Positions 37,566 through 63,690 of a stretch of DNA of 64,000 bases are shown piece by piece; positions within the stretch are counted from its first letter, which is position 1, and each line of letters starts with the position of its first letter. Position numbers and translations under genes: made by a program. This DNA comes from Desulfovibrio sp. JY (GTDB taxonomy: Bacteria; Desulfobacterota; Desulfovibrionia; Desulfovibrionales; Desulfovibrionaceae), in NCBI GenBank assembly GCA_021730285.1, contig CP082962.1:2418001-2482000 (forward strand), written 5' to 3'. The notes beneath the pieces were generated by a model. The model was given only the letters and a program-made list of their open reading frames with translations. It was not told where the DNA came from and searched no databases.

Positions 37566-38140
37566 GAGTATACTGCGATTTCCTGAGCTTTTGGCCCAGG
37601 GGGAGTCCAATAGGGGAGCTTTAAGAAAACGTCCCAGGAGGAGCCCGGTAGAGAGCAGGAGAGGAGTGCCCGAGGGAAAAGCCCAAGCCCAAATTCCCCC
37701 GGGGGAGGAGCTTCAGCTGCTTACTTGGGTAACGTATTGAGATTCTAGCTAGTTCTGGAGTGCAGGAAGCTGCATCTCCTGATTTTCAGCAGATGGGGCA
37801 GTGAAATTGGTCTGCTCAGAGCAGAATCAGCTATACAAGGGCTAGTTTGCTTTTTCCCTTGAATCTCGCTGAAGTAGCTCGATTTTGGTGGAATCATCGA
37901 GAAAAAGTCGCATCCGGTCGCAGAGTCCTGCGAATTTTCAGTTCCAATCAGTGCCAATACGCCGGAAACAGCCCCATCACCGGTCCTGGGAGAGGGTAGG
38001 GCAGACATAGTGACGTATCTAGCTGTAATTCCGACTATTTCAAATACGCGTTTTTTCGCGTTTTTGACTCAGCAGTATTTTCCCCTTTTCGAAGGAATTG
38101 CATCTTTTGCCGTTAAAAATGATTAATCAGCTTTCACACG
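37566..38140 (+). repeat. R repeat, long copy R1
   Basis: Non-coding. The second 460 bp (about 37670-38130) line up almost end to end with 63220-63680. The GC-rich first 130 bp line up with 60868-61008. It includes the palindromes TGCAGGAAGCTGCA (37761-37774) and CGCAG-AGTC-CTGCG (37919-37932) and the tail ACGCGTTTTTTCGCG. It ends just before the promoter of the HTH gene at 38218. Frames running through it have no ribosome sites and are not conserved between copies. Confidence 0.85.
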
Positions 38141-38147
38141 GCTTCTG

Positions 38148-38175
38148 TTGACATCCTTTGTTTTTGCTATACGCT
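38148..38175 (+). promoter_or_regulatory. Promoter of HTH copy 2
   Basis: TTGACA (38148-38153), a 16-base spacer and TACGCT (38170-38175), placed like the promoter of the paralogue at 15019. GAAGGAG lies before the start codon. Confidence 0.5.
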
Positions 38176-38217
38176 CAAATCTGAAACTACGACATAAAAA
38201 ACGAAGGAGACTCACCC

Positions 38218-38535
38218 ATGCCTATCGCATCTAAATTCGACGCGATGAAACTTCGCACGATGATCACCGAAGGAAAGACCGCTCAACAAATTATGGATGT
38301 CTTCGATATTCCCAAAACCACCCTGAAAAATCATCTCACGAAACTTATGACGCTTGATGAGAAGTTCTACAAGATCGAAGGGATGGATGCTCGTGTGGCA
38401 TCTGGAAGCGTGAAGTTCTCTGGTACTGGTCTCCGTCTGTCCCCGACGCTCCTGGCCAACTACGGCTTCAAGCAGGGCGACGAGTTCAAGGTCTCCTGCA
38501 TGGAAGAGGGGAGAATTGTTCTGGAGAAGAAGTAG
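38218..38535 (+). CDS. Small HTH/beta-hairpin protein (copy 2)
   Basis: 105 residues, identical to the protein at 15088 at 97 positions. N-terminal helix-turn-helix (ITEGKTAQQIMDVFDIPKTT) and a C-terminal hairpin-like stretch (LRLSPTLLANYGFKQGDEF). The differences are mostly conservative, suggesting both copies are under selection. An R repeat and promoter stand immediately upstream, and the conserved hairpin downstream, the same order as for copy 1. It may regulate the accessory genes or bind the repeated DNA itself; neither is shown. Confidence 0.75.
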   Translation: MPIASKFDAMKLRTMITEGKTAQQIMDVFDIPKTTLKNHLTKLMTLDEKFYKIEGMDARVASGSVKFSGTGLRLSPTLLANYGFKQGDEFKVSCMEEGRIVLEKK

Positions 38536-38563
38536 CTAGAATTTCAGATAGTTCTGTGAAATG

Positions 38564-38600
38564 GCCTACGTCGTCCAGAAAAATTGGTTGGCGTGGGTCT
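38564..38600 (+). terminator. Conserved hairpin downstream of HTH copy 2
   Basis: GCCTACG pairs, with G-T wobbles, with CGTGGGT, followed by CTTTATTTG. Nearly the same sequence as at 15434, including the loop start TCGTCCAG. Confidence 0.55.
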
Positions 38601-38749
38601 TTATTTGTTTGCGGGAAGAGTATATGATAGCAAATATTACAAATATGTAAAGATTGATTGCCCTGTAGGTTGGCGTGCTCTTGACGTGAGGATGCTATTC
38701 TAATTCTGTAACCATGACAAGAGCAAACACTTTCGGGTTCGGTCTATAA

Positions 38750-39226
38750 ATGAGTTACGAATCATCAGCGTTGGTTAGTTCAGTGGAATGTTTAAAGTGC
38801 GGGAAATGTTGTTCCTGCTTAACGTTTTGGTATAGCTCTGCCGAAGGTATGGATAAGCGGATTGAGTTTCTTGATAGCGAAATCGTAACGTATTATAAAA
38901 CAAATATTTTCATAAAAGAGGTCGAACAGCTTATAGTTAAGATTAATATTCCGTGTAAATATTACCATGATAATGATGCCGGTGCTAAGCATTGTATTAT
39001 ATGGGAATCGCCAAAGCGTCCACTAATGTGTCGAGTTTACCCTTCGAATCAATTTATAGATTATATTAACAAGCAACTTTTTGTTAATAAATCCTACATC
39101 GAAAAGGCAAAGATTGTTTTGTCACAAATTTGTCCAGCAGTAGAATGCTTGACTACTGACGATATACTAGCTGAGCAACGTCGCGTTAAAGAAAAGTGGG
39201 ATTTGAATAGCTTTAAGAGGGATTGA
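38750..39226 (+). CDS. YkgJ-type CxxCxxCC metal-cluster protein
   Basis: 158 residues, cytoplasmic. The N-terminal CLKCGKCCSCLTFW is the CxxCxxCC signature of the YkgJ/zinc-or-iron-chelating family. A further Cys set is in KHCIIWESPKRPLMCRVYP, the usual partner motif. The family is thought to hold an Fe-S cluster or metal and has been linked to protein modification, but the reaction is unknown. AT-rich. The stop codon touches the start of the next membrane-protein gene, indicating an operon with the following two genes. Confidence 0.78.
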   Translation: MSYESSALVSSVECLKCGKCCSCLTFWYSSAEGMDKRIEFLDSEIVTYYKTNIFIKEVEQLIVKINIPCKYYHDNDAGAKHCIIWESPKRPLMCRVYPSNQFIDYINKQLFVNKSYIEKAKIVLSQICPAVECLTTDDILAEQRRVKEKWDLNSFKRD

Positions 39227-39228
39227 TA

Positions 39229-40272
39229 ATGTTAAGCTCTGTCGTCGTTTTTGTCAAGGGATTCCGATATGCCATAAAGGTTTATCGGTCAATATTTTAC
39301 TCGTATTTAATTTTAGTCTTCGGCTTTATTTTATGCAATACTTTGTTAAAAGATAAATTTGAACAATTATGCACTGCATTGTTTACTCATGAATTCATTC
39401 CGTCTGTCAATGCGTCTTTTATCGAAGAATTTATTTTTTTTGGAACAATTGGGCTTGTTACGATCTACGTCACGACAAAAAAACCTGAGGATGAAGAGCT
39501 CCGTAATCGTATTCGATCTGTGACAAATGCTAACTCTATTAGCGATAATGCTAAATCTTATTTCGAGAATAAATCCAGAGAGATCCTTGCCTATAATAAA
39601 CAGACGATAGTAACTGTTAGACTCAAAGAGTTTCGAGAAGATGAAAAGGCTATCCGTGTGTCTATAGATTTTGACAATACTATTTCGAATATGTGTAAAG
39701 ATGTGCCTTATACAAACTTTTCCTCAACAGCTATAGTAAAACCAGCGTTAAAAGTTGATAATTCATGGGGACATGTCACACTCCTCACGATTGAAGATAA
39801 GAAAAACAGTTCACAGAAACAAGTTGTCGTTGAAGGGGATGTTGTCCTTTTGGAAGAGGAAGGTTATTATTGGTCCAATAATTTTCAGATAGCAGCAGAT
39901 AGTGAAGCTAGGTTTAGACTCTGCTACGAGTTTTGGACTGAAATACAAGAGGATGAAAGCGCCATAGCCGTTGATAAGAATTGGATATTTACTGTGGTCT
40001 CTCGGTATACTGACAATTTTACATATAATATTGTAAATAAGATTGATAAATTTGAAAATATTGCGTGCGTAATAAGTTATCCTACCCATAAAAATGATGA
40101 ATCTCCTAAATTTGCAAAACGTGATGTTGCAATTTCATTTAATGAAACACAGAATATCGTAAATGAGATATCTCTCTATCCTCAAGATAGATTCAAAATA
40201 TTTATTAAATTTCCGTTGAAAACATCTCAACCTTTGAACGTACTCCAAGGAGAAGAAGATGAGCAAGCCTAA
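39229..40272 (+). CDS. Membrane-anchored protein of unknown family
   Basis: About 347 residues. Two hydrophobic segments near the N-terminus (SYLILVFGFILCNTLL and FIFFGTIGLVTIYVTT) are followed by a large soluble part, probably cytoplasmic, rich in beta strands. I recognise no domain. The ATG at 39229 is preferred; a TTG at 39223 overlaps the previous stop. The end overlaps the poly-glycine peptide gene by 14 bases, so all three genes from 38750 look translationally coupled. Confidence 0.65.
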   Translation: MLSSVVVFVKGFRYAIKVYRSIFYSYLILVFGFILCNTLLKDKFEQLCTALFTHEFIPSVNASFIEEFIFFGTIGLVTIYVTTKKPEDEELRNRIRSVTNANSISDNAKSYFENKSREILAYNKQTIVTVRLKEFREDEKAIRVSIDFDNTISNMCKDVPYTNFSSTAIVKPALKVDNSWGHVTLLTIEDKKNSSQKQVVVEGDVVLLEEEGYYWSNNFQIAADSEARFRLCYEFWTEIQEDESAIAVDKNWIFTVVSRYTDNFTYNIVNKIDKFENIACVISYPTHKNDESPKFAKRDVAISFNETQNIVNEISLYPQDRFKIFIKFPLKTSQPLNVLQGEEDEQA

Positions 40273-40477
40273 ATTTTCTTTCTTTGCTGCTGATTGTAGT
40301 CGCATCGGTGGTGGCGGCGGTGGCGGTGGCGGTGGCGGCGGTGGCGGTGGCGGCGAGGATGGAAGTGGCAAGGGGGATAAAAAGCAACATAACTTTCTGA
40401 ACCATGCAGCTATATATAAATTGGGCGGCGGTGGTGGCGGTGGTGGCGGTGGTGGCGGTGGTGGCCGCACTATTTAA
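40259..40477 (+). CDS. Poly-glycine peptide
   Basis: 72 residues: a leader MSKPKFSFFAADCSRI, 16 consecutive Gly (17-32), a charged linker with HNFLNHAAIYKL, 14 Gly (56-69) and the end RTI. AAGGAG lies just before the ATG, inside the end of the upstream gene, so it is translationally coupled. The short leader with one Cys plus long Gly tracts recalls ribosomally made modified peptides, but no radical SAM or other modifying enzyme is adjacent except the Cys-cluster protein two genes upstream. The DNA of the tracts is a GGT/GGC triplet repeat, so length can vary without frameshift. The antisense poly-proline frame is a shadow. Confidence 0.65.
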   Translation: MSKPKFSFFAADCSRIGGGGGGGGGGGGGGGGEDGSGKGDKKQHNFLNHAAIYKLGGGGGGGGGGGGGGRTI

Positions 40478-40538
40478 GGCAAAAAAACTGTTAGTTATTT
40501 TGTATGTTTTAAATTTTGGCTATGTACCATGAATGGAT

Positions 40539-40571
40539 GCCCACGCCTCCGGAGAAAAGGGTGGCGTGGGC
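40539..40571 (+). terminator. Hairpin after the poly-glycine gene
   Basis: GCCCACGCC (40539-40547) pairs perfectly with GGCGTGGGC (40563-40571). Same family as the hairpins at 15434, 38564 and 62366. Confidence 0.65.
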
Positions 40572-40679
40572 TGTTGATTGGATGGAACTACCCGAAAAAC
40601 TAATTTTCTAATAGGTCAAATTTGAAGCTATAGTGCATCAATTATAATCAAATGTGACATAGGCTTGCAATAATGGATT

Positions 40680-40870
40680 AAATCTTATGATTATTTTAGT
40701 GCAGCTTCCTGAATCGCCATGTGCTCCCTCTTAAGATTTCATGATAATATATTGAAATAATTAATTATAAATCAAATGCTCTTCCCCCCAACGCCCGTTT
40801 CTCCTCCCCCCGTGAAAAAAAACCAACAAACCCCTTGACCTCCCCAGCCCAAATCCGTACTTACCCCGAG
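40680..40870 (+). repeat. Decayed R-related sequence
   Basis: TGCAGCTTCCTGAA (40700-40713) is one half-site short of the R palindrome. TGAAATAATTAA and AACGCCCGTTTCTCCT..CCCGTGAAAAAA match the sequence just before copy R3 (63092-63165). No gene is seen in 40572-41412 apart from the tRNA fragment and terminator repeat. Confidence 0.5.
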
Positions 40871-40990
40871 CCAACGACGCGCCAACGAAGCCAACGGTTT
40901 TGGCCCCCAACTTTTTCTTGGGAACGAAAGATTTGGGGTTGACTTCGGGACGAGTTTGGGGTATTTAGCCTGTTCCCTGATTCTGTTTAT

Positions 40991-41027
40991 AGGACCGTAG
41001 CTCAGGGGGAGAGCGCTTGCTTGACAC
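40991..41027 (+). pseudogene. Truncated tRNA-Val (GAC anticodon) fragment
   Basis: Acceptor strand AGGACCG, TA, D-arm GCTC-AGGGGGA-GAGC, G, anticodon stem CTTGC and loop TTGACAC (anticodon GAC) are in perfect register for a tRNA. The 3' half is missing: the anticodon stem is not closed in place and no T-loop GTTCRA is found. This is the 5' half of a tRNA-Val gene, as left by integration or deletion events at tRNA genes. Confidence 0.7.
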
Positions 41028-41082
41028 ACCACAAGCGTGATTTAACCCCCTAAAATCCTTCCAAAAGCCCCTGTGAAAAAGT

Positions 41083-41190
41083 GATCTCGTTGGCGGAGAG
41101 CCAACGGGATCTTCTTCTTTTATTCAGCCTGGAATTCGTACTTTGGTCAGTCGTTGGCGTGAGATGCCAACTGGGGCTGGTTGCCAAAAT
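41083..41190 (+). repeat. Terminator-bearing direct repeat, right copy
   Basis: GATCTCGTTGGC pairs with GCCAACGGGATC, followed by TTCTTCTTTTA, 56 bp beyond the tRNA fragment. The next 75 bp (GCCTGGAATTCGTACTTTGG, GTCGTTGGCGTGAG..CCAACTGGGGCTGG) match those at 33516-33585. Probably the original transcription terminator of the tRNA locus. Confidence 0.7.
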
Positions 41191-41412
41191 CGCTTTCATA
41201 TCTGCATAGACCCACTGATTTTGCGTAGTTTTTTATTTAAAAAGGATTGGTAACCATTGCGACGGAGTCGTTTATTTGCATTTATGCCAAACTTTCTTCG
41301 GTAAATCTGTAGGAACACTCGCTTTGCTCCTCCCCTCCCCACTCAAATAAGGGCAAAACAAAACCAATTATATCAAACTATTCTGAAAGGCTAGATATTA
41401 TAATTTCGAAAG

Positions 41413-42552
41413 CTAGTTTGAACATTTATTGTTTGATTTTAAAATGGTGTTTCGCGGAGCCAATAAATACATTCCATATGTGAAACAACCTGCTGGTGAT
41501 AGTATTATGAATTTTTTTGAATTAATTGTATTACCGTAGACGGTTGAATAAAACAACGGTAAAATAACGACTGAAGAACGTGAAGCCATGCCGGCTATCG
41601 ATGAATAGAAATATAATTCCTCACCAGAGTTTTCATAATAGGGTCGTTCCCAGTTTGGGTAGGGGAATTCACGTATGTCTTTCCACTCCTTTCCAACTAT
41701 AGAGAACCAATTGTGCGCTAAATGCAGTTCTTTTTCATAATCATAGATCATTTTAAGTAATGCTTTATTTGTTTGTCGTTTAAATTTTCCGTCAATCTTT
41801 GAGCAATAATATCCTTTATTGATAAGTAGTGCCTGGATGTCTTTAATAGTTAGTCCTTTCAATTTAGCCATAAAATTATAGATGGCCTCAAGGAATTTTT
41901 TTGAGTACATTGGTGCTTGTTTGTTTAATGATTTAATTGATATTAAATTATTGTATATTCCTCTTAGTATAGCGTCGCTGTTTTTGTTTGCTGCTATATA
42001 GATGATTCCAATCTGGGCCATAGTGAAGAAATCATCAGTCGGATAATATTGTTTTTTAATTAGATTGTCATATCGGTAGTTGAAAGTGTTAAAGTATGGG
42101 GTAAAGTATTGGATAAAATGATCAAGAGAAATTTTGGTGTCAAGTCGCCATATCCCGTCGGTTTTAGTTTTGTATCCAAATTTTTTCAATAAAATCTGTA
42201 TCCTTTTTATAGAATCAAGTGGACGACCAAGCAAAAAAGATAGTGTTATATCATCAAACACCCCAGTTTGATATACAGGTGCCGAACATTGGAACTTTCT
42301 TAATAGATTGATATCTTCCCCTTGGGTCTTGCATTCATCGCTATGGTTGTGAAGATATTCGGTCATTTGTTTATCTACAATAGAAATAATGTTACGAGGG
42401 AGATTGGTACACTGGTTGGTCTCACTGTGCAGCTCAGTATCGCTACGCATACAAAGAGTGTCGTCGGCAAAAGGTATATATCCACTATCACAGTAAGCCT
42501 TGTTGTTAAATAAAAATATAAATGCCGTTATAAATATGCAATATCGAAACAT
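41413..42552 (-). CDS. Secreted protein with two peptidoglycan-binding-like repeats
   Basis: 379 residues. A signal peptide (MFRYCIFITAFIFLFNNKAYC) leads into a Cys-containing region. Two segments resemble PG_binding_1 units: IQILLKKFGYKTKTDGIWRL near residue 120 and IQALLINKGYYCSKIDGKFK near residue 240, both with the GY..xxDG core. The C-terminal 100 residues are unassigned and contain a short hydrophobic stretch. Last gene of a four-gene minus-strand operon of envelope proteins. Very AT-rich. Could bind cell wall; no enzymatic motif seen. Confidence 0.65.
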   Translation of the reverse strand: MFRYCIFITAFIFLFNNKAYCDSGYIPFADDTLCMRSDTELHSETNQCTNLPRNIISIVDKQMTEYLHNHSDECKTQGEDINLLRKFQCSAPVYQTGVFDDITLSFLLGRPLDSIKRIQILLKKFGYKTKTDGIWRLDTKISLDHFIQYFTPYFNTFNYRYDNLIKKQYYPTDDFFTMAQIGIIYIAANKNSDAILRGIYNNLISIKSLNKQAPMYSKKFLEAIYNFMAKLKGLTIKDIQALLINKGYYCSKIDGKFKRQTNKALLKMIYDYEKELHLAHNWFSIVGKEWKDIREFPYPNWERPYYENSGEELYFYSSIAGMASRSSVVILPLFYSTVYGNTINSKKFIILSPAGCFTYGMYLLAPRNTILKSNNKCSN

Positions 42553-43759: not shown

Positions 43760-43765
43760 CTTTGC

Positions 43766-44892: not shown

Positions 44893-45956
44893 AACACCTC
44901 TTTGGGCTTGTTGAATTTTCGAAAAACAATATTGAAATAGAGAGCAATTCCCTTGGCTCTGTATAACGACTTCTTGCGGAGTATGGATAATACTAGCCGG
45001 AAGTAAATAGTTTACTATTCTGGTTGGTTAGCCGTAAAAAATAGAATCCAAGACCATCGAAAGCTCTCAGACTGGCACTATCGCATTGATTTGGCATATC
45101 ATGAGGCGGTTCAATCATGCCACCGGCCCTGTCGCTATTTAGCTATTTATATCTGACAATACTCTTGTCGCAAGAGGTAGTCAATATTTATAATTAGCTA
45201 GGGCTCTGCTTTAAAATTTTTGATACCAGTTGGCTACGTGGTTCATTGGTTTAGCTTCAGCGTCCTTGATGGTGTAGCGGTCCCCGATTTTGTGAACAAC
45301 TACCTATTGGAGAGGAAAGATTCACAGTGGTTTTTTGTAAATGTCCCGACGACGCTTCTGCACCCAACGCTCACCTTCGGCTTCTCCGCTAACTTCTTCT
45401 TGAAGTTATCCCGAAGCATTTTAATATCATCGAGAAGAATGGCGAGAATGCGATGAGTTGCAACGCATTCCTGTGTAAGGGGCTTACCATCTGCATTGGT
45501 AAAAGCTGTCCTGATCAAAAACGTGGGAAACCGCGTTTTTGGTCCTTCCCCATGGTCAAAATCGCAGAATCCTGCCATCGGGACCAGTCAAATTGACTGA
45601 AAATCAGCTTTTTCTATGAAATTCCCTGTGATTTCACTCCTGGATAGCTGACATGGACGTGAAAAACACAGGGTCCTGTGACTTTTGACCTCCGAAAAAA
45701 CGTGTAAAAAGCATTTTTTCAGTCTGTGCAGCTTCCTGCATTTTTTATCACTCTGTTTTTATAAGATTTTATTCGATAACGGCAGCTCCACCGTTGTTCC
45801 CGTTCCATCCCCAATGGGACAGCTTCCGCCCCAACGGCCAGCAGCGACACTGGCACCGATCCCGGGCGCTGACGGAGAACCCGCACACTTCTGTTAAAAA
45901 GTGGTGGACCTCCGGGGCAGGGACGTCCACCTGAATCGACGGGGTAAACCAAGATT
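44893..45956. other. Kilobase without a secure gene
   Basis: A 92-codon minus-strand frame (45300-45578) is open and not extreme in composition but has no ribosome site, so it is listed only here. The 45580-45760 part is R-related (separate entry). The remainder up to 45956 contains short hairpins (GGACCTCCGGGGCAGGGACGTCC near 45905) and nothing I recognise. Confidence 0.4.
45583..45760 (-). repeat. R-related sequence with both palindromes
   Basis: Contains an exact TGCAGCTTCCTGCA (45727-45740), the reverse complement of the R1/R3 palindrome, and CACAGGGTCCTGTG (45667-45680), matching CGCAG-AGTC-CTGCG of R with a paired change on both arms. The rest is too diverged for an end-to-end match. 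Confidence 0.55.
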
Positions 45957-46863: not shown

Positions 46864-46868
46864 CACGT

Positions 46869-47993
46869 TTAAGCCACTTCCAATGCGGGTAACAGTTTGA
46901 CTGCTCGTTCCTTTTCGCCCTCCATGTAGTGGTAATAGGTGTCTGCCGTCATCTTCACCGTGGCATGCCCCATCATCTTGGATACAGCAGCCAGGTCAGC
47001 ACCTTTGCTGAGCAGGGTGGTCGCAAACAGGTGCCGAAGATCATACATCCGAGTAGGGTAGGTGATTCCGGCGCGCTGACAGGCATGCTTGAACGCTTTT
47101 CGGATCGTCGTCAGCTTCCGTCCCATGTACTCGATGACATATTCGGACTGGCTCGATGCCTTCTCCTCCTCCAGACGCTTCAGGAAGGCGGGATTGATCG
47201 GGACCGTCCGATAGGTCTTGGTTTTGGTGGCGTAGATACGCACAGTGCCAGCGGTGAAATCGATGTTCTCCCAACGTAGTGACAGGAGCTCCGATTCCCC
47301 TGGTCGAGTGCCCAGGTTGAAGCACACCTCCATCGCCCATCTCAGGTGTGGTTCGGCACAGGCCATGATCTTCTTGGCGTCGTCCAGGGTCAGCTTCAAG
47401 TCCCAGGGCTGGACCTTGGGCTTTCTCCAGTTTTTCAGCGGGTTGACTTTGGTCAAACCATTTTCGATGCCGAAGTTGAAGATGAAACTCAAATAATCAC
47501 AGTACTTATTCACCGTGTACTGCGATCTGGTCTTCTTGGTGGTGCCGCTGACGCCTTTGAAGTGCAGGATGAACGGAACCATGTCGCCCTGGTAGGTCAG
47601 GGAGTCGACTGGTTTGTCACCGATCACAGGTACGAACTGGTTCTCCAGCAATCGTTCGATGTTGCGGATGTGCTTATCCGTCCGTCCTGATGCACGCATG
47701 TGATCCAGGTAACGGTGGCCAAGCTCGAGCAGGGTGATCCCGACAGGTTTCTGTCCGAGGACTTCTCCCGTGGGCGCATCCGTCATGCTGACGGTCTTGA
47801 CCACCTGGACGGATGCCGTAGCTGTCGCAGGATCTGGAATTTCCAGACCATGCTCGATAGCATCTTGAACCGCTTTGTCGAAGACCTGTGCTTTGGCTTG
47901 AGCAAGATCACCACGACCAAAGGATTTGTCGTGTCTTTTGCCGTTGACATGCCAATAGACCATCCAACGGCTATCACGTTGATAGACACCCAT
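46869..47993 (-). CDS. int: Phage-type tyrosine recombinase/integrase
   Basis: 374 residues. The N-terminal 60 residues (MGVYQRDSRWMVYWHVNGKR) look like an arm-binding AP2-like domain. A core-binding helical region spans about 85-190, and the catalytic domain follows with Arg in LGTRPGESELLSLRW, the HxxR box as YDLRHLFATTLL, the second His in MMGH and the Tyr in TADTYYHY. All catalytic residues are present. It presumably integrates and excises the surrounding island. The tRNA-Val fragment 5.9 kb away is a candidate remnant of an attachment locus, but no att core was matched. Confidence 0.93.
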   Translation of the reverse strand: MGVYQRDSRWMVYWHVNGKRHDKSFGRGDLAQAKAQVFDKAVQDAIEHGLEIPDPATATASVQVVKTVSMTDAPTGEVLGQKPVGITLLELGHRYLDHMRASGRTDKHIRNIERLLENQFVPVIGDKPVDSLTYQGDMVPFILHFKGVSGTTKKTRSQYTVNKYCDYLSFIFNFGIENGLTKVNPLKNWRKPKVQPWDLKLTLDDAKKIMACAEPHLRWAMEVCFNLGTRPGESELLSLRWENIDFTAGTVRIYATKTKTYRTVPINPAFLKRLEEEKASSQSEYVIEYMGRKLTTIRKAFKHACQRAGITYPTRMYDLRHLFATTLLSKGADLAAVSKMMGHATVKMTADTYYHYMEGEKERAVKLLPALEVA

Positions 47994-48098: not shown

Positions 48099-48656
48099 TT
48101 AGATCGATTTTAGCAAAATTTCTTCGACTTCTTCCTCCTTCACGCCTAGGTATCTTCGTGTGATGCTCGGGCTGCTATGATTGAGCCTTTTTGCTATAAC
48201 TTCCCACGAAGTGCCGTGAGTCTTTCTTTGATGGTAACAGAAGGTCTTCCTCAAGGTGTGAGCCCCGGCATTGATATGTAAATTGATCGCATCGCACCAT
48301 TGCTGCACATACATTGTTACTGCGTATGTGGTTAAAGGACTGTTCTTACCCTTTCGACTCTTGAACAGAAACAGTTCATCCTTGGGCTCGATGGTCTTCA
48401 AGTACTCATCAAGTGCCTCCTTGATTTCCTTGTTGATCATGAAAACGTTCTCTTTGCCCGTCTTTTTTTCACGAATGACAATGCGATCACCGACATTGAC
48501 GTGTTTTACATCCGATATTCTGAGTACAAGGATGTCCTGTACCCGGAGTCCAGTGTTGATCCCCATGATGAACAACAATTTGTTGCGAGGTTGATCCGAC
48601 AAGAGCTTTTTTATGCTCCTGATGTCACGTGCGCTAGTTATTGGCTCGACCTTCAT
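48099..48656 (-). CDS. Short tyrosine recombinase (catalytic domain only)
   Basis: 185 residues from the ATG at 48656, which has GGAGG upstream. Only the catalytic domain is present: Arg in NTGLRVQDILVLR, the His-Arg box as GAHTLRKTFCYH, a second His in LNHSSPSITRRYLGV with the nucleophile Tyr. The core-binding domain is missing, as in small plasmid or phage resolvase-like integrases. Same direction as the larger integrase 105 bp downstream; it may resolve multimers or help in excision. Confidence 0.88.
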   Translation of the reverse strand: MKVEPITSARDIRSIKKLLSDQPRNKLLFIMGINTGLRVQDILVLRISDVKHVNVGDRIVIREKKTGKENVFMINKEIKEALDEYLKTIEPKDELFLFKSRKGKNSPLTTYAVTMYVQQWCDAINLHINAGAHTLRKTFCYHQRKTHGTSWEVIAKRLNHSSPSITRRYLGVKEEEVEEILLKSI

Positions 48657-49047: not shown

Positions 49048-49425
49048 TTATGGGAGAATCTTGGTCAAGATGATTTTCCCGTCGCTGACCTCGAGCGAAA
49101 ACTCGTCGTTTTCGTTGACTTCGAGATCACCGAGATCGTGGGCCTTGAGGTTAATCTTCAGGATGCCCTGTTTCACCTTCGGCCGCTTCGAGTCCTTCAG
49201 GTACAATCCCTTCACGTCGTAGAGCACGCGATCCGTGCTGATGAGTTTCAGAAGGTACTGCTTGAGCGTCTGCTTGTGCTTGATGTTCATGCGCTCCATT
49301 ATCGTAGGAGCATCCAGACCTTCTTTGACAAGGCTACGAAGAGTCTTCGGATCGTACTTCGATTCGATCTTCTTCTTCGCCTTCCCGTCCGAAACGTCAG
49401 TTGAATTACCATTCTTGACTCCCAT
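49048..49425 (-). CDS. HTH/beta-hairpin protein (divergent copy 3)
   Basis: 125 residues. A basic N-terminal tail is followed by LRSLVKEGLDAPTIMERMNI and TLKQYLLKLISTDRVLY, which line up with the helix-turn-helix of the proteins at 15088 and 38218. The C-terminal LKAHDLGDLEVNENDEFSLE and GKIILTKIL line up with their hairpin tail. Identity is low but the order and spacing are the same. It stands alone between the recombinases and the replication gene and could be the element's own regulator, of which the shorter copies are satellites. Confidence 0.68.
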   Translation of the reverse strand: MGVKNGNSTDVSDGKAKKKIESKYDPKTLRSLVKEGLDAPTIMERMNIKHKQTLKQYLLKLISTDRVLYDVKGLYLKDSKRPKVKQGILKINLKAHDLGDLEVNENDEFSLEVSDGKIILTKILP

Positions 49426-50709: not shown

Positions 50710-52716
50710 ATGGACTCCACCTGGGACGAAATTTGCCGACTGGTCCAGCAGGCCGATCAACTTGACGCTGACGGTCGTCTCAGGATTTTTGCGTATCTGG
50801 CCCAGACACTTTCCCTCATCCCTCTCCGTGACCGATTTCCGACTCAGGCCGAGATCGAGGAGCACGGTTCGCTGGCCAAAGCGGCCAAGAAGTACAAAGC
50901 TCCGATCGAGAAAGGTTGGAATCGGTGGTGTCACGAGAAGCGCCCCTTTGACCGAACGGATTGCAGCACCGACCGTGCGGGCATCGCTTGTGGCCCAGCC
51001 AGTGGTGTCCTGGTGCTCGATGTCGATAATCCCCATCTGTTTGACGTATGGATGCAAGAGCATCATCCAGATGATTCGCTGCCCGTGACCTTGAAGGTGA
51101 GAACTGGCGGCCACGGTGAGCGATTTCATTACTATTTCCAGTATCCATCCGGGGATGAACAATATTTTTGCCGTTCAGTAAAGGGAATCTTCGACATCCG
51201 TGGCATCGGTGGCCAAGTTCTTTGTCCTGGTTCGTTGCATCCAGAGACACGAAAGCCCTATATCTTTGCTGAAATGGCTCCCATTGCGCCCGCGCCGTTA
51301 TGGCTCTTGGAAATGAGCAAAAAGTCCAATGGCGGCAAGAAAGATGACGACGAACAAAGCCATCTCGACAGTATAAGCAAGAAACAGATTCTGGAGATTG
51401 CTCCTGTAGATAGTTTTTTGTCTAATTTGGATCTGTCAGATGACACTAAACAGAAAATCCTCACAACTTTTCCTCATGGGCAAAGGTCTGAACCATCTTG
51501 GTCCGTTCTTTTGGGGTTGCTCAATGCCAATGTTGATGAATCGACAATAAAAGCTATTTATCAAAGCTATCCCATTGGAGAAAAAGCAAGAGAAAATCCA
51601 AAGTGGTTTGAGCGTGAAATTGAACGAGCGAAACAAATTATTGCCCAAAATCCTATAGGGGTAAATATGCAACTCGGTTTCTCTTCTGGAGCGAGCAGTT
51701 CTTCTTCTGATTCTGAGTATGGAATTGTCAATGCGTTTGAAGTCTTAACGGCGCAAACAAGCTTTGAGTTTCTTATAGATAATTTTTGGCCAAAAGATGA
51801 ACCGTTGCTGATCACTGGGTATGGTGGGGCTGGCAAGTCAGTCCTGACATTACAAATTGCCATGGATCTTGTTTTCCCTCCAGTCAATGGGTTCTTGGAC
51901 AAATTTAAAGTGCTTCATGGCGGACATCGTGTTCTTTTTGTGCAATCTGAAAATTCTTTGGTTGGAATGCGACGGAGGCTTGAACTTATACGCAGCGCTT
52001 ACGCTATCCCAGATGATGTTATTCAGCAGAAGCTTTTCTTTCTCGGTAGAAGAAATGACATTAGGGCTTCTGGCGATATTGATAGTAAACAATTTCAAGA
52101 TATAATCAAAAAGCAGCATGGCGTGATAGGATTCGATATTCTCATCGTAGACCCGCTTATAAGTTTTCATGATAAAGATGAAAATTCAAATGACGAGATG
52201 CGTAGGCTTTTAGACAATTTTTCAGAATTTTGTGAAAGTCTCAAAATCTCGCCGTTGATCATACATCACCATGGGAAATTTAAGCAAGAAAGAGGCGTTG
52301 GTGGTGGGCGAGGTGCAAGTGCTATCGGTGATTGGTCTCCTAACACCTGGGAACTCGAATATAAAGAAAAAGACAAGAAATTCAAATTCATCCACAAAAA
52401 AGCAAGAAACTTTATGTTGAACGATGATGCTGTGCTTGAGATGCAAAATTTGAGATTTACCCCATCAACTTCTTCAGGTCAATCTAGTGGGAAAAATGAT
52501 ACTACTTACTATGTTATAAAAGCTTTACAAAATTTGAATGGAGTTGCTCAAACTCAAACGGTGCTGAAGAATGAAGTCGTTAATGTTTACAAAGCAGAAA
52601 ATCCTGCTGGAAGTATTACCGCTGTGACGGCTGTTAAGTACATCACAGATGCCGTTAATAAAAGCGCTGTTAAGGCCATCCCTGGAACAAGAGGATCGAT
52701 ATCCTATCAGCTTTAA
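50710..52716 (+). CDS. Primase-polymerase/helicase replication protein
   Basis: 668 residues. Residues of about 50-200 are an archaeo-eukaryotic-type prim-pol domain: catalytic LDVDN (Asp104, Asp106), then GGHGERFHYYF (His140). Residues of about 340-580 are a RepA/RecA-like hexameric helicase: Walker A GYGGAGKS (370-377), Walker B DILIVDPLISF and a RepA-like IIHHHGKFKQERG. The C-terminus is unassigned. This fusion is typical of satellite phages and integrative plasmids and would start the element's replication. GC content drops from the prim-pol to the helicase half, hinting at a mosaic origin. The iteron-like repeats follow directly. Confidence 0.88.
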   Translation: MDSTWDEICRLVQQADQLDADGRLRIFAYLAQTLSLIPLRDRFPTQAEIEEHGSLAKAAKKYKAPIEKGWNRWCHEKRPFDRTDCSTDRAGIACGPASGVLVLDVDNPHLFDVWMQEHHPDDSLPVTLKVRTGGHGERFHYYFQYPSGDEQYFCRSVKGIFDIRGIGGQVLCPGSLHPETRKPYIFAEMAPIAPAPLWLLEMSKKSNGGKKDDDEQSHLDSISKKQILEIAPVDSFLSNLDLSDDTKQKILTTFPHGQRSEPSWSVLLGLLNANVDESTIKAIYQSYPIGEKARENPKWFEREIERAKQIIAQNPIGVNMQLGFSSGASSSSSDSEYGIVNAFEVLTAQTSFEFLIDNFWPKDEPLLITGYGGAGKSVLTLQIAMDLVFPPVNGFLDKFKVLHGGHRVLFVQSENSLVGMRRRLELIRSAYAIPDDVIQQKLFFLGRRNDIRASGDIDSKQFQDIIKKQHGVIGFDILIVDPLISFHDKDENSNDEMRRLLDNFSEFCESLKISPLIIHHHGKFKQERGVGGGRGASAIGDWSPNTWELEYKEKDKKFKFIHKKARNFMLNDDAVLEMQNLRFTPSTSSGQSSGKNDTTYYVIKALQNLNGVAQTQTVLKNEVVNVYKAENPAGSITAVTAVKYITDAVNKSAVKAIPGTRGSISYQL

Positions 52717-58839: not shown

Positions 58840-58867
58840 AGATTTCACTTCAGCGTTATTTTTGCCG

Positions 58868-59377
58868 TTAAAACTGGTCCTTCTTCGCTCCAGCTTTCTC
58901 TTTCAAGCACGTCTCGTACTCTCTCTCCGTTATCTTGTACGTATACGTAATCTCAGAAGCAGAAGAATCCACGTCAATAAAGAAAACCAATTTTACACGT
59001 TTCCAATTCCAAGTCCCTATATATTGCTCCAAAGAATCTTCTACAGAAGTACATTCTCCATACTTTTGCTTGAACATATTAAAAACTTGTCCAGGATTGC
59101 AGGAAGAAAAAGTCATATTTACTTTGTAAATTCTTCCGTTGAAGCCTTCGTAAGTTAAAGTGTCTAGTTTGCACTCACCGATGGTCATCTCGTCACCGGA
59201 TTTCTTGAAAACATCGATCTTCTCATCCCTTGAGTATTGCTTGGTCATTCCAGGAATCGCAGAGTAGTAGGTGTCCCATTCGATTCCACGAAAGTTCAAC
59301 GGTTCCGTGCTTCTTTGAGCAAAACAGGGTAACGGCAACACCAGTAGGATAAGCAAACAAACAACAACTCTGTTCAT
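58868..59377 (-). CDS. Secreted protein of unknown family
   Basis: 169 residues. Signal peptide MNRVVVCLLILLVLPLPCFA. The mature part has LNFRGIEWDTYYSAIPGM, a pattern (F.G..W.....I) I recall from small exported Desulfovibrio proteins, and paired Cys (ECKLDTLTY, SSCNPGQ, YGECTSVED). Periplasmic, probably with disulfides. The previous gene ends 1 bp before its start, so they are coupled. Confidence 0.65.
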   Translation of the reverse strand: MNRVVVCLLILLVLPLPCFAQRSTEPLNFRGIEWDTYYSAIPGMTKQYSRDEKIDVFKKSGDEMTIGECKLDTLTYEGFNGRIYKVNMTFSSCNPGQVFNMFKQKYGECTSVEDSLEQYIGTWNWKRVKLVFFIDVDSSASEITYTYKITEREYETCLKEKAGAKKDQF

Positions 59378-59378
59378 T

Positions 59379-59681
59379 TTAGTTCAGCCTCCGAACCAGA
59401 ATCTTCCTTCCAACACCGCTGACGAGTAAATAGTAGTGGCGTCTGTCCTTGATGATCGTGCATAAGGGACTGTTGAGGTCTTTGTCGTAGCTGAAAGCGC
59501 TTCCTAGAGTTTCAAAGACTTCGCCAGTCGCCATTTTGACAATCGTTCCTGTCTGTATCCCATCCTTTTCCTTGAACGTATTCAGGCATTGGCTGTACTT
59601 GATTTTGTCGTCAGTCAGTCCCGTGGCAGGGGAGAGGAGGGCAAGCGCGACAGCGACGGCACCGATCAACCTGGTTTTCAT
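59379..59681 (-). CDS. Small secreted protein
   Basis: 100 residues with signal peptide MKTRLIGAVAVALALLSPATG. The mature part is 78 residues, beta-rich, with two Cys (YSQCLNTF and SPLCTIIKD) that may form a disulfide. First gene of a three-gene minus-strand operon, divergent from the XRE regulator. No family recognised. Confidence 0.62.
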   Translation of the reverse strand: MKTRLIGAVAVALALLSPATGLTDDKIKYSQCLNTFKEKDGIQTGTIVKMATGEVFETLGSAFSYDKDLNSPLCTIIKDRRHYYLLVSGVGRKILVRRLN

Positions 59682-59749
59682 GGCAAACCTCGTGCTTTTC
59701 CTGGTTAAGATTGTTTTCGGCTAGAGCTATTAATAACTTTAGTTGCTAT

Positions 59750-59761
59750 AATTTGCAAATT
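59750..59761. promoter_or_regulatory. Palindrome AATTTGCAAATT in the XRE intergenic region
   Basis: A perfect 12-bp palindrome, next to a TATAAT-like box (59747-59752), in the 147 bp between the divergent secreted-protein and XRE genes. A candidate operator for the XRE repressor. Confidence 0.45.
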
Positions 59762-59828
59762 AACCAGCCGATCATTTGTTATGTAACCAGAATCATTGCC
59801 ATATCCTCTACGCTAGCGGAGGAATGGC

Positions 59829-60152
59829 ATGGACAGCGTACAAGACCTTTTCGGGAAGAAAATCAAATCGATACGTCGAGCCAGAGACATCACCCAGGAA
59901 AAACTGGCTGACCTGTCCGGTCTATCCCTCCAGTACATTGGAGAGATTGAACGGGGCCGGCGCAATCCGTCCCTGACCAGCATCGAGCAGCTGTCCAAGG
60001 CCCTGGACATCCCCATGGCGGAACTGTTCAGTTTGGAAGAGTTCCGGTTGGCACCGGATGAGCTCAAAGCGATCCTGATCCGGCAGATTGAATCAGCGGA
60101 TGATGATCGGTTGCGTACCTTTTTCAGCATGGCCCAGACCCTGTTCCGGTAG
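59829..60152 (+). CDS. XRE-family repressor-like protein
   Basis: 107 residues. Helix-turn-helix of the Cro/CI type: IKSIRRARDITQEKLADLSG, then LSLQYIGEIERGRRNPSLTS and LSKALDIPMAELF. The C-terminal 40 residues are helical, maybe for dimerisation. GGAGG precedes the ATG. Divergent from the small secreted-protein operon, with a palindrome between, and convergent with the DUF6573-like gene. Might control element maintenance or the neighbouring operon. Confidence 0.87.
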   Translation: MDSVQDLFGKKIKSIRRARDITQEKLADLSGLSLQYIGEIERGRRNPSLTSIEQLSKALDIPMAELFSLEEFRLAPDELKAILIRQIESADDDRLRTFFSMAQTLFR

Positions 60153-60157
60153 CGGGA

Positions 60158-60550
60158 TCAGTCATCCTCGGGCAGCATGATCGTCAGGACAGGTTCCGCA
60201 GTGTCACCGGGACCGATGTGGGCGATGACTTGGACGGTTTCTGTCCTGCCTGGTGCCATCAGGAACGCGACTTTGAAGTACGCTCGGTCGGTCCCTTTGC
60301 TGGTCCGGGCCGCGATCATCGCCAGTGTCAGGAGATCATGGAGCCGGCCAGTCGTGCTTTGCCCCTGAGATTTTAATTCTTCAGGAACAAAAGCGACATA
60401 GCCGTGGAAGAGATGATCGGTAATAGCGACAGGGACTTTGAAACCGTGGGCTTTGGCCTCGTCAGTGACGTCTATGAGAACACCGTCAACGATGGCCTGT
60501 GCCCTGGTGTAGCTGTAGATGAGGTTTTCAAAAACTTTGCCGTTACTCAT
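60158..60550 (-). CDS. DUF6573-like protein
   Basis: 130 residues from the ATG at 60550 (GGAGG upstream). FENLIYSYTRAQAIVDGVLI and DVTDEAKAHGFKVPVAIT match the opening of a protein family common on phages and plasmids (DUF6573 as I remember it), and DLLTLAMIAARTSKGTDRAYF its middle. Function unknown. Overlaps the upstream gene by 8 bases, so they form a pair. Confidence 0.68.
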   Translation of the reverse strand: MSNGKVFENLIYSYTRAQAIVDGVLIDVTDEAKAHGFKVPVAITDHLFHGYVAFVPEELKSQGQSTTGRLHDLLTLAMIAARTSKGTDRAYFKVAFLMAPGRTETVQVIAHIGPGDTAEPVLTIMLPEDD

Positions 60551-60764
60551 CTGAGCTACCTCCATTTCGCATGTCTAAAAGAGTATCGAGACGTTGACGG
60601 AAATTTTTACACAGTGTGATGCCGACTTCCGAGTATGAGCGCGTTAACTCCCCATAAAGTTCGACGGAAGTGGAATCCATAATCTGGAAGAGCTGCTCTA
60701 TAGGACGAAATGCGGTAATTATCTCGTCCTTCAATGTGAGTTTATCGGGCTGTTTCTGGTCCAT
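60543..60764 (-). CDS. Small helical protein
   Basis: 73 residues, all-helical, with no motif recognised. AAGGA precedes the ATG and the stop overlaps the DUF6573-like start, so both are translated from one transcript. Probably an accessory protein of the mobile element. Confidence 0.55.
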   Translation of the reverse strand: MDQKQPDKLTLKDEIITAFRPIEQLFQIMDSTSVELYGELTRSYSEVGITLCKNFRQRLDTLLDMRNGGSSDE

Positions 60765-60865
60765 GAGGTATCCTTTTGCTGTTTAGGACCAAGGATACCC
60801 TGCGACGGAAATGCGGTCACGGGAACTTGTGTGGTTTTGGAAACAGCCCTATGGAAAAAGGACAT

Positions 60866-61010
60866 TGGGCTGAGACTGCGATTTCCTGGGATTTTGGCCC
60901 AGGGGGAGTTCAATGGGGGGGGCTCTAGGAAAAAGTCCCAGGAGGGGCCCGGTAGAGAGCGGGAGAGGGGTGTCCGGGGGGAAAAGTCCTTCTGGGGGAG
61001 GAGGGTAGAT
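60866..61010 (+). repeat. R repeat, GC-rich half only (R2a)
   Basis: Matches the first 130 bp of R1: CTGCGATTTCCTG, TTTTGGCCCAGGGGGAGT, GTCCCAGGAGGGGCCCGGT, AGAGAGCGGGAGAGGGGTG. It ends in GGAGGAGGG, which serves as ribosome site of the next gene, so repeat and gene touch directly. Confidence 0.75.
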
Positions 61011-61011
61011 T

Positions 61012-61302
61012 TTGTTGGTATTAAAACGCAGTAAGGCGTTATTTATATTGAACGTTGTACTTATTCATGTGACACCGATAGTTTTTCTGTTGATGATACT
61101 GGTTACACCCAGAAGTCTAGTTGTGCCGACGCTTGTTTCTGGACTATTTTGGCTGGCGATGTTCCTCTTGCTCTTTTATACAGAACAAAACAGACACAGA
61201 ATATCACTGTGGTGTATAACATCATTGTTGAGCTCTTTGATACTGGCAAACCCAGGAATGCTTACAATGATAACGTGGACGATTAATGGTTTTGCTCCGT
61301 AG
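61012..61302 (+). CDS. Small membrane protein
   Basis: 96 residues starting with TTG; the GGAGGAGGG ribosome site lies 8-16 bases upstream and decides the start. Three hydrophobic segments (LFILNVVLIHVTPIVFLLMI, a middle one to LLLFYT, and SLLSSLILANPGMLTMITW). AT-rich. Its 5' end is directly joined to an R copy. No family recognised. Confidence 0.55.
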   Translation: MLVLKRSKALFILNVVLIHVTPIVFLLMILVTPRSLVVPTLVSGLFWLAMFLLLFYTEQNRHRISLWCITSLLSSLILANPGMLTMITWTINGFAP

Positions 61303-61339
61303 GATCCTTTGGTGGTAAATAGTAAAGCCCAAAAGATCT

Positions 61340-61560
61340 TCATGTGAGTACGCAAGAGGAAGGTCAAGGAAAAAGCCCAACACCAAATACCCTCTGGGGA
61401 GGGCTTCGGCTGTTTTCTCGAAGAAAGTATCGCTATTTTAGCTAGTTCAGGAGATGTAGGGTGCTGCATTTTCTGATTTTCAGCAGATTGTGCAGTGAAA
61501 TCGGTCTGTTTTGAGGTGATCAGCAATAAACTTTCTTTGCTGATCTATAAGCCAGGGGTA
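61340..61560 (+). repeat. R repeat, middle part (R2b)
   Basis: Matches 63220-63370 and 37670-37830: AAAGCCCAA, GGGGAGGGCTTCGGCT, GTATCGCTATTTTAGCTAGT, TTTTCAGCAGAT, CAGTGAAATCGGTCTG. Its palindrome is degenerate (TGTAGGGTGCTGCA, 61455-61468). It lacks the 3' half of R and precedes the membrane gene at 61642. Confidence 0.75.
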
Positions 61561-61641
61561 ATGACACTATTTTCGAGATATTCATTAGGTAAAACATATC
61601 GGTTTTGATGCCGAAATTGCGCAGGTATTGGAGTAGGATAA

Positions 61642-62304
61642 ATGAACAAAAAGAAAACAATATTTATTCTGAATCTGTTGTTATTGTACTTCTCTTCGTT
61701 TTTGATTTATTTTTGTTTCAATTTTTCTATTAAAATCGGACTTACCGTTAAATTGTCTGCTGTGATTGGAGTCACAATTTTGTGGGCTGTATTCGCTTAT
61801 ATGCTTCGATTTACTTCCCCTGTAAGATCGGTCAATCGGATGTTGGTTATTCCGTCTTCTATGATTCATGCTTTGTTTCTGACGATTATAATGTATTTGT
61901 ATCTTTTTAGTTCATCTCAGAGATTTCAGACAGTAATATTCACTTTGAGTGTTCCATTATATTTTCTGGGGCTTGCCGTGATGGTAGGGTTCGTTGTTGC
62001 CATGTTCTATTCGTCTTTCAAGCGAGGACAGGTCAAGAAAAATTGGATTATTGTACCAGCCGCCTTATGCTTTCTCCCGATCATTCAGTTCAATAATATA
62101 TTTGTGCTAGTAATGTTCCCTTTGTTCGCTTTGCTGGTCTTAGCTGTTATATTGCTAGTGTACTGCTATATTATGCTGGAGCCAATTGGAAGAGTGAATA
62201 TCCTGGTGAGGTCAATGGAAGCTTTTGTGGCGATTTCTTCGGCTTTTGCTGCATATATCGCTGCTTATTGGGTTATCCTAAGAAATATCTCGAGGGCACC
62301 GTGA
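61642..62304 (+). CDS. Polytopic membrane protein of unknown family
   Basis: 220 residues with seven hydrophobic segments and few charged residues, so almost wholly in the membrane. No motif recognised. GGAGTAGG precedes the ATG. Preceded by R2b and followed by a hairpin of the shared family at 62366. Confidence 0.65.
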   Translation: MNKKKTIFILNLLLLYFSSFLIYFCFNFSIKIGLTVKLSAVIGVTILWAVFAYMLRFTSPVRSVNRMLVIPSSMIHALFLTIIMYLYLFSSSQRFQTVIFTLSVPLYFLGLAVMVGFVVAMFYSSFKRGQVKKNWIIVPAALCFLPIIQFNNIFVLVMFPLFALLVLAVILLVYCYIMLEPIGRVNILVRSMEAFVAISSAFAAYIAAYWVILRNISRAP

Positions 62305-62365
62305 ATTGATCTGGATATTGCCAACTTTTTGAACAAGCTAGTTTTGCAGGGTATTGTGTGTATTG

Positions 62366-62404
62366 GCCACGTCATCCAGTGAATAGGAGTGCGTGGGTTT
62401 TTGG
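62366..62404 (+). terminator. Hairpin of the shared family, copy 4
   Basis: GGCCACGTCATCCAG and GTGCGTGGGTTTTT repeat the pattern of the hairpins at 15434 and 38564. CCACG pairs with CGTGG and a T-run follows, so it can end transcription. Confidence 0.5.
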
Positions 62405-62419
62405 AGATGGAGTGCTTAG

Positions 62420-63034
62420 ATGAGTTTGAAAATTATATTCTTACTATGTTTTTCACTTTGTCTCCCTGTTTTTATTATTCTTTTGTATATATATTCTGTC
62501 TACACAAATAAGAGCGATTTAAAGTTAAAGGAGATGCTTGCTGAAGCGAATTCAGCAGGCAGAAATATTGACGAAGTTTTTGTTTTAGAAAAAAACTTTG
62601 CTGCTATTTGTTTTATGTGCATAGGGCCAATGTTTTTAGTTGTATTTTTATCGGCTTTGTTGTTTTTTGATCATACCATTATGAAAACAATCATGTACAT
62701 ATTTGCATTCGTAATGTTTGCGCTTGGATCTGTGTCAGCTTTTTGTGACTATTTTCTTTCGATGATTGTTATTTCAAAGCGTCGTATGTATGTTAGATGT
62801 CTTCAGACGTTATATAGGCCGGTTGTTGTTGTGCTTGATGGGAGGTATCGTTACGAGGATATTCGTACTAGCATGTTTGGGCTCTACATGGCACGATATG
62901 CCGCCAGTATTTCCATGCCTTCAGGATCATACGTTGTTATAAACGTGAATAATAAAAAGCAATTACGTGATGTGCTTAATCGTATAAACTCTACTTCAGG
63001 GGGGGCCGCGGTTGAAGGTGCTGTACCTATATGA
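62420..63034 (+). CDS. Membrane protein, paralogue of the one at 63786
   Basis: 204 residues. Helices at about 1-28, 62-85 and 92-118, then a soluble C-terminal part of 85 residues with a beta-rich PH-like feel (YRYEDIRTSMFGLYMARYAA, then SIPSGSYVVIN-type strand). Its first 75 residues line up with the truncated protein at 63786 (YSVYTNKS against FSVYLNKT; AAICFMCIGPMF against AFCFTCLAPV). An R copy separates the two. Function unknown. Confidence 0.65.
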   Translation: MSLKIIFLLCFSLCLPVFIILLYIYSVYTNKSDLKLKEMLAEANSAGRNIDEVFVLEKNFAAICFMCIGPMFLVVFLSALLFFDHTIMKTIMYIFAFVMFALGSVSAFCDYFLSMIVISKRRMYVRCLQTLYRPVVVVLDGRYRYEDIRTSMFGLYMARYAASISMPSGSYVVINVNNKKQLRDVLNRINSTSGGAAVEGAVPI

Positions 63035-63089
63035 GAAGTGTGATCTTCGTGCAATAGACATTAACCGTACTGGCATTTCTAATTAACAT

Positions 63090-63690
63090 GCTGAAATAAT
63101 TAACTACTCATCTTCCACCATCACCGTTAACGCCCGTTTCGCCTTCCTCCGTGAAAAAACCCTTGAGGAGTACAAAACTGTCCAGGGGAGGGCAGTAGGA
63201 TGCGAAATAAGGGGTTGTCCGGGGGAAAAGCCCAAGCCCAAATTTCCCCCGGGGAGGGCTTCGGCTACGTTTTCAGTGAAAGTAATGCTATTTTAGCTAG
63301 TTTTGGGATGCAGGAAGCTGCATCTCCTGACTTTCAGCAGATAGGGCAGTGAAATCGGTCTGGTTGGAGCAAAATCAGCAAGTTAACGGCCAGCGAAGTC
63401 TTTCCCTGGAATCTCGGTGAAATAGCTCGATTTTGCTGAAATTAGCGAGAAAATGGGGTGCTGGGTCGCAGAGTCCTGCGATTTTTCAGTCCTGATCAGT
63501 GCCAATATCACAGAAACAGCCCCATTCCTGGTCCAGGAGAAGGGTAGGGTAGGTAAAGTGACGTATCTAACCGTAATAGCATAAGTTTCAAGATACGTTT
63601 TTTTTCGCGTTTTTGACTCACCAGTATTTGCCCCTATTCGGAGATATCGCATTTTTTGCCGTTGAAAATGATTAATCAAAAACGATCTAA
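63090..63690 (+). repeat. R repeat, long copy R3
   Basis: About 460 bp (63220-63680) match R1 nearly end to end, including TGCAGGAAGCTGCA (63309-63322), CGCAG-AGTC-CTGCG (63467-63480), GTGACGTATCTA, the TTTTTTCGCGTTTTTGACTCA block and GATTAATCA at the end. The first part (63092-63165) also matches 40740-40830. Non-coding. Confidence 0.85.

Follow-up and report, generated by a model that had tools for sequence, protein, structure and literature searches.

A repeated unit in tandem tRNA-Val islands of Solidesulfovibrio as a probable cargo-insertion zone

The stretch analysed here, called the window, covers 64,000 nucleotides of Desulfovibrio sp. JY (contig CP082962.1, positions 2,418,001 to 2,482,000). 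It carries several copies of R, a non-coding repeat of about 600 bases which a first-pass annotation, made from the letters alone, had described as placed upstream of one cargo gene after another. Judged from its sequence, R is half of a larger unit, U, in which R, a gene called M and a terminator hairpin h follow in this order. We give a probability of about 0.6 to the reading that U is the cargo-insertion zone of a family of integrative elements, assembled and rearranged through homologous recombination among copies of U, the elements being islands of about 30 kb lying in tandem at a tRNA-Val gene.

Unit U and its arrays

M, a gene of 105-106 amino acids (aa), begins about 32 bases behind a full R. 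Twelve M copies were aligned, and the other 11 share 56-98% identity with the copy at 38218. The genes at 15088 and 38218, first listed as cargo, are both M and are 92% identical. All five window copies of R do precede a plus-strand gene, as had been claimed, but this gene is M for R1 (full) and R0 (partial), and true cargo for the other partial copies. The features of U and of the R zone in the window are the following.

14706-14872, plus: R0, partial and diverged R, R[53-224] (nhmmer, 72.9 bits)
15088-15405, plus: M gene, first copy, 105 aa (alignment of M copies)
15432-15475 (ends approximate), plus: terminator hairpin h after the first M (hairpin comparison)
37568-38186, plus: R1, full-length R, R[1-589] (genome search and profile match)
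37761-37774, plus: hairpin H1, TGCAG-N4-CTGCA (compensatory changes across R copies)
37919-37932, plus: hairpin H2, CGCAG-N4-CTGCG (compensatory changes across R copies)
38042-38070, plus: hairpin H3, terminator-like, closes the R core, recurrent cassette junction (alignment)
38148-38175, plus: promoter-like TTGACA-16-TACGCT ahead of M (sequence; conserved among copies)
38218-38535, plus: M gene, second copy (family search, alignment, model)
38563-38604 (ends approximate), plus: terminator hairpin h after the second M (hairpin comparison)
60873-60989, plus: R2a, R[3-117], left direct repeat bordering a 3.4-kb insertion (profile match)
61012-61302, plus: cargo frame, 96 aa, no Pfam family (Pfam search)
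61358-61532, plus: R2b, R[96-272] (profile match)
61642-62304, plus: cargo, 220 aa, no Pfam or PADLOC family (Pfam and PADLOC searches)
62331-62402, plus: hairpin-only tail, M[399-472] (20 bits)
62420-63034, plus: cargo, 204 aa, cassette also found behind an M tail in a relative, G005 (alignment)
63175-63678, plus: R3, R[60-532], R core proper from about 63212 (profile match)
63786-64000, plus: cargo, 191-aa gene leaving the window and ending at genome position 2482361 (full-length cassette common to G013)

R1 (37568-38186) and R3 (about 63175-63678) share 79% identity over 464 aligned columns, in keeping with the roughly 460 bp of agreement first noticed, and the profile matches R[3-117], R[96-272] and R[53-224] bear out that R2a, R2b and R0 are defined parts of R. 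The left end of R3 (about 63092-63211) lies outside core R; it is part of the preceding 204-aa cassette, which is found again in a relative with the remainder of R missing. A related hairpin had been reported behind several genes and is present after 15088, 38218 and 61642.

A search of the whole own genome with R1 gave five places, all on the plus strand, between genome positions 2455566 and 2483043. They include a further copy, 95% identical, just beyond the window (2482406-2483043). A profile built from the own-genome copies and those of relatives, and run on the fetched stretches, adds R0 and a copy at about 2518037. All own-genome copies are confined to one 86-kb region, mostly in islands stacked at the tRNA-Val gene. 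R occurs in 11 of the 14 genomes of the genus Solidesulfovibrio and in 11 of 247 genomes of the family, every one of them Solidesulfovibrio (two candidates per genome scored). A different genus of the family (G098; G and L numbers are our handles for genomes and loci) has array-like M pieces but no match to R. The plasmid search gave no match to the R core, and the viral-contig and phage searches gave neither a relative of M among viral contigs nor a phage match. One M at 63% identity (L110:1163-1474) lies on a contig labelled as a Bacteroidales metagenome-assembled genome, reflecting either transfer or a misassigned contig. Weak R-like matches to R[158-340] (30-34 bits) at 45558-45776 of the window (minus strand) and at 62186-62402 of G005a lie near Zn-ribbon genes on the strand opposite to M; they were excluded from the counts.

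R probably represents the control region of M, together with two more conserved small hairpins, because the terminator-like H3 is followed by a conserved TTGACA element ahead of M, in a sequence that we take to be promoter-like from its motif. M itself is modelled, with low confidence, as a helix-turn-helix (HTH)-type N-terminal part and a beta-rich C-terminal part. RNAalifold, applied to an alignment of 27 of the 38 R copies that cover at least 330 positions, finds three small hairpins only, with 21 pairs of which 8 show two-sided changes. The numbers of paired cells and of two-sided-change cells and the covariation score exceed those of all 500 shuffles. The number of pairs with two-sided changes (reached by 102 of 500 shuffles) and the number of pair types (282 of 500) are not above chance, and Rfam has no family at five loci. 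A large structured RNA is thus unsupported, the conserved structure being that of small hairpins. A G-quadruplex acting as a trigger, for which Neisseria pilE is a precedent, was also considered for block A and found too weak: 21 of 24 block A copies reach the G4Hunter threshold of 1.2, as do 55% of mononucleotide shuffles, and four runs of at least three G occur in 13 of 24 copies against 17% of shuffles. An H3-like motif (AAATACG...CGTTTTTGAC) outside any R match is present at L007:19690-19730 (genome position about 2489699), in front of the type I restriction-like genes with which the next island begins on the left.

U pieces form arrays on both sides of M. To its left stand units of partial R and cargo; to its right, in several islands, units of cargo, M 3' end and h. 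The proposed cassette of R, gene and hairpin thus holds for [R piece + gene] on the left, while the fuller unit is U and the right-hand units consist of gene, M tail and hairpin. Behind the M at 100475 (counted from the window start; genome position 2518475) the own genome carries cargo, M[326-475], cargo, M[253-480], cargo and M[316-480], and four M tails succeed one another in G005a. In these two arrays all seven M tails end at h and start 11-56 bases past the stop codon of the cargo. Across islands most tails also end at h, their starts vary widely, and the R pieces differ. A constant distance from R to the next gene, which the first-pass annotation had proposed to look for, is not observed, because R copies end at different points (R117, R272, R532 and R589).

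Orientation is uniform with respect to M: among 76 merged R copies, all 66 that share a stretch with a full M lie on its strand. The next feature is M in 25 copies, another same-strand gene in 25, an opposite-strand gene in 25 and none in 1 (fetched stretches with crude gene calls; 8 weaker matches of 25-35 bits, some on the other strand, excluded). The rule that R precedes a same-strand gene breaks down in about a third of the copies. In the own genome the sole 'opposite' case, that of R2a, is an artefact.

Exchange between U copies and the alternatives

The order of the pieces provides the first argument for homologous exchange. With R and M treated as a single U coordinate system, neighbouring U segments overlap in 56 of 57 cases when the 5 hairpin-only segments are excluded (against a mean of 48.9 under permutation, with a fraction of 0.0005 of 10000 permutations attaining this value). 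Overlap of this kind is to be expected if a resident U undergoes a single crossover with a molecule that bears cargo and part of U.

A filled and an unfilled site can be compared directly. In a sister island (G005a, 26410-25262) the 73-aa gene, R and M lie in unbroken order. The own genome is 92% identical to it leftward up to 60989 and 84% rightward from 64372, and contains a 3.4-kb insert (60990-64403, counted from the window start) between two copies of R[1-117].

R copies are also mosaic. R1 and the copy beyond the window are 99.3% identical over 411 columns and 94.8% overall. Among 351 R pairs, 66 have an identical tract reached by at most 1 of 400 simulations using column-specific conservation, the pairs not being independent of one another. 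The ends of these tracts vary.

Finally, the same cassettes recur with the same junctions in different company. The '79-aa' cassette is preceded by R ending at R119 in G006a, G002a and G013b, and the response-regulator cassette by R ending at R470-477 in these three and in G001a; the latter is 97% identical at full length between G006a and G002a. An R copy separates the response-regulator and GGDEF genes in G006a and is absent in G013b and G001a, where the former stands directly before the latter; between species, this comes nearest to the difference by one R-plus-gene unit that the first-pass annotation had proposed to look for among strains. The junction of the GGDEF cassette with R falls near R480 in G006a, and a match that stops at R444 extrapolates to about the same position in G001b, the left neighbours of the two being different. 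The EAL/HDOD and '79-aa' cassettes follow other orders in different species. Both the response-regulator and the GGDEF cassette join R at or just behind H3, excluding the promoter-like sequence. The 204-aa cassette, in the R zone here, lies behind an M tail in G005a (88% identity over 860 bases). The suggestion that R is a homologous exchange block thus gains from three sides: mosaic copies, overlapping segments and cassettes re-ordered between species.

In the mechanism that we favour, DNA carrying cargo and a stretch of U would recombine with a resident U by a single crossover, leaving the cargo flanked by two copies of the stretch. If the stretch lay within R, an intact R-M would gain a partial R and cargo on its left; if it lay in the M tail and h, an intact M would gain cargo and an M 3' end on its right. 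Subsequent crossovers and gene conversion among U copies, in tandem or on incoming islands, would reshuffle the cassettes. The terminators h and H3 might render the junctions transcriptionally harmless, and hence safe landing points.

Several points weigh against this exchange model. In hybrid R copies the left half does not track the left cassette beyond chance, nor does the right half track the right one (difference -0.023, reached by 1567 of 2000 permutations). When hairpin-only segments are included, overlap falls to 57 of 62 (fraction 0.022 of 5000 permutations), and tandem duplication of whole units followed by decay could also yield overlap. Junctions, placed approximately as ends of local alignments, cluster somewhat around R96-R128, where 8 of 38 independent ends (0.022) and 6 of 16 starts (0.0038) fall; homologous recombination of the generic kind would not lead one to expect this. 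The shared stretch is in some cases short, as at R2a/R2b with about 20 positions. Each species is represented by a single genome, and some of the matches may reflect orthologous islands instead of movement.

A passive history, in which U was duplicated with the islands and then decayed while cargo settled at random in a tolerant zone, would make the R and M pieces relics with no role in acquisition. The varied lengths and many end points of the pieces, the stacked islands carrying remnants and the negative flank test all agree with it. We regard it nonetheless as unlikely, as it does not account for the overlap order (56 of 57), the extended identical tracts in otherwise diverged R copies (66 of 351 pairs) or the same cassette junctions with different neighbours.

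More doubtful is an integron-like site-specific system, in which a XerA-like recombinase of 185 aa, perhaps with M or its paralogue, would move units of gene and site. The hairpin after M, H3 and a G-rich TCCGGGGG stretch in R might conceivably serve as sites. This protein matches the XerA/integron-integrase family at 81 bits, under the cut-off of 220, and adjoins an M paralogue in several islands. The covarying hairpins, the clustering at R96-R128 and the regular tails of the two longest right-hand arrays, which end at h and begin 11-56 bases past the stop, would also fit. Yet both recombinases score far under the curated integron cut-off (TIGR02249: 31 bits for the 185-aa and 68 bits for a 374-aa protein, against 265). 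The starts of M tails spread widely, the ends of mosaic tracts vary, and the hairpin after M differs in other species, for example G003. Similarly improbable is a further reading, in which an integron analogue was born inside these elements and has R and the M tail as its dedicated recombination sites. These would be structured, with covarying hairpins and a G-rich junction at about R96-R128, and the small XerA-like recombinase, together with M or its paralogue, would use them for capture and reordering of genes on both sides of a master unit.

R had further been proposed as a mobile leader, an expression cassette bringing promoter and regulation to each incoming gene. The plus-strand genes behind all five window copies invited this, as did the promoter-like TTGACA and terminator-like hairpin of full R. 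It now seems very improbable, because R in relatives often precedes a convergent gene (25 of 76 copies, by crude calls); moreover, the two cassettes that join R at or just behind H3 lack the promoter part. A self-transposing insertion sequence, or a miniature inverted-repeat transposable element remnant, suggested by the many copies and three small hairpins, seems extremely improbable, with no Rfam family at five loci, no inverted repeats of at least 60 bp in the window (no separate search was aimed at short terminal repeats or at transposases related to R), a single R orientation per island and own-genome copies in one 86-kb region only.

The islands at tRNA-Val and their cargo

The islands holding the U units form a stack upstream of a tRNA-Val (GAC) gene, which is intact (L066:16972-17046, at 109.0 kb from the window start). 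It adjoins a gene that we take to be thrS, recognised by its protein and by the neighbouring infC-rpmI-rplT-pheST translation-gene order. Boundary repeats with a 5' part of tRNA-Val lie at about 41.0 and 71.4 kb on the same scale, and each of the two units between boundaries has one integrase. The features of tandem elements at a tRNA gene (tDNA) are thus present: the tRNA is intact at one end and fragmentary at the others, and every unit has its integrase. R0 (14.7 kb) lies left of the first clear boundary, in an island without delimited ends. Left of R, many islands carry a 73-75 aa gene in divergent orientation, a DUF6573 gene and, convergent, a gene of HTH_3 type. The literature search found no paper on DUF6573. 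The backbone also encodes a sigma-54-type ATPase. Backbone features and the remaining cargo of the window are listed below.

38750-40272, plus: cargo behind the U that begins with R1 (U1), a CxxCxxCC protein and a protein of 347-349 aa with no known function (family search)
40745-41146, plus: island boundary repeat with 5' tRNA-Val fragment (alignment)
46869-47993, minus: tyrosine integrase of the island (family match)
48099-48656, minus: XerA/integron-integrase-like small tyrosine recombinase, 185 aa (family match)
49048-49425, minus: distant M paralogue adjoining both recombinases (sequence match)
50710-52716, plus: Prim-Pol/AAA replication-type protein of the island (family match)
59829-60152, plus: HTH_3 regulator convergent to DUF6573, backbone (family match)
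60158-60550, minus: DUF6573 protein, left neighbour of the R zone (family match)
60543-60764, minus: 73-aa backbone protein, divergent from R (sequence match)

The distant M paralogue (about 50 bits; also at L008:10839-11219) stands beside two tyrosine recombinases in several islands, and related matches occur in further genomes of the family. Transposase-like frames, judged by eye, lie left of R copies, at 14263-14642, about 60 bases from R0, and at 35842-37079, with a gene of 130-142 aa between them and R1. Through insertions there, these arrays may have lost their left parts. The cargo behind U1 ends in a 72-aa frame (40259-40477) with two long glycine runs encoded by GGC/GGT repeats.

The cargo differs between genomes; its genes were called with a simple finder of our own, which is wrong in places within AT-rich cargo. 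The own genome carries a CARF protein, an ORC-CDC6-like ATPase, an HD-CE protein, a 5-methylcytosine (5mC) methylase and a GHKL-type ATPase. In relatives (G006 and others) the cargo includes CheW, methyl-accepting chemotaxis, flagellin, response-regulator, histidine-kinase, GGDEF and EAL/HDOD proteins. One G006 island (L040:13108-18016) has two flagellin-like genes with an R piece between them (the first assigned by Pfam), and similar flagellin-like genes are found again in other islands. L062 (G001) and L065 (G009) share, between a full U and the R that follows, a chemotaxis cassette of 7.4 kb with 96.8% identity, and this identity across two species suggests recent transfer.

Comparison with known systems

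A literature search in one library found no description of R or M arrays. Excerpts of a study of P2-like phages and P4-like satellites describe accessory-gene hotspots (PMC9122126) which, like the present zone, are fixed places in a mobile element where accessory genes change. Part of the own-genome cargo likewise looks defence-related (CARF, 5mC methylase). Here, however, the cargo stands in arrays, its members separated by parts of a regulatory unit that is itself resident, and the cargo of relatives is made up of chemotaxis, cyclic di-GMP (c-di-GMP) and flagellin genes. The Islander catalogue, as far as the consulted part of it goes, reports tDNA islands with displaced fragments and gives Desulfovibrio magneticus RS-1 as the richest genome with 19 islands (PMC4383910). 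The placement at a tDNA with displaced fragments is shared, whereas no R, M or cassette arrays are described in that part of the source.

Orphan cdiA-CT/cdiI modules of contact-dependent inhibition (CDI) and rhs-CT modules form same-orientation tandem arrays downstream of a resident gene, and their displaced 3' fragments could recombine with it, according to the portion of PMC4927057 used here. The M tails M[326-475], [253-480] and [316-480] are likewise displaced same-strand 3' fragments downstream of a resident gene. This resident is, in contrast, a complete M of 105-106 aa, of HTH-like DNA-binding type, and not an exchangeable toxin with immunity. The M 3' fragment stands behind the cargo with no fusion between the two, and there is an additional upstream array with non-coding R pieces.

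Integron cassettes are gene arrays with a repeated hairpin-bearing sequence, the repeats lying in one orientation. The present arrays share both properties. They differ in that the repeat pieces vary in length and start, that no integrase scores above the integron cut-off, and that the cargo lies on both strands and is sometimes several genes long. The system behaves like an accessory-gene hotspot that probably exchanges via a repeated resident unit; it resembles CDI/Rhs modules and integrons and departs from each in a defining feature that was tested. From it one can read how accessory genes are collected and rearranged in a mobile island around a small regulator-type gene, in arrays on both sides, with defence-type cargo in some species and chemotaxis and c-di-GMP signalling in others. 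If exchange at U were demonstrated in culture, it would offer a non-integron system for a direct test of gene capture into ordered arrays.

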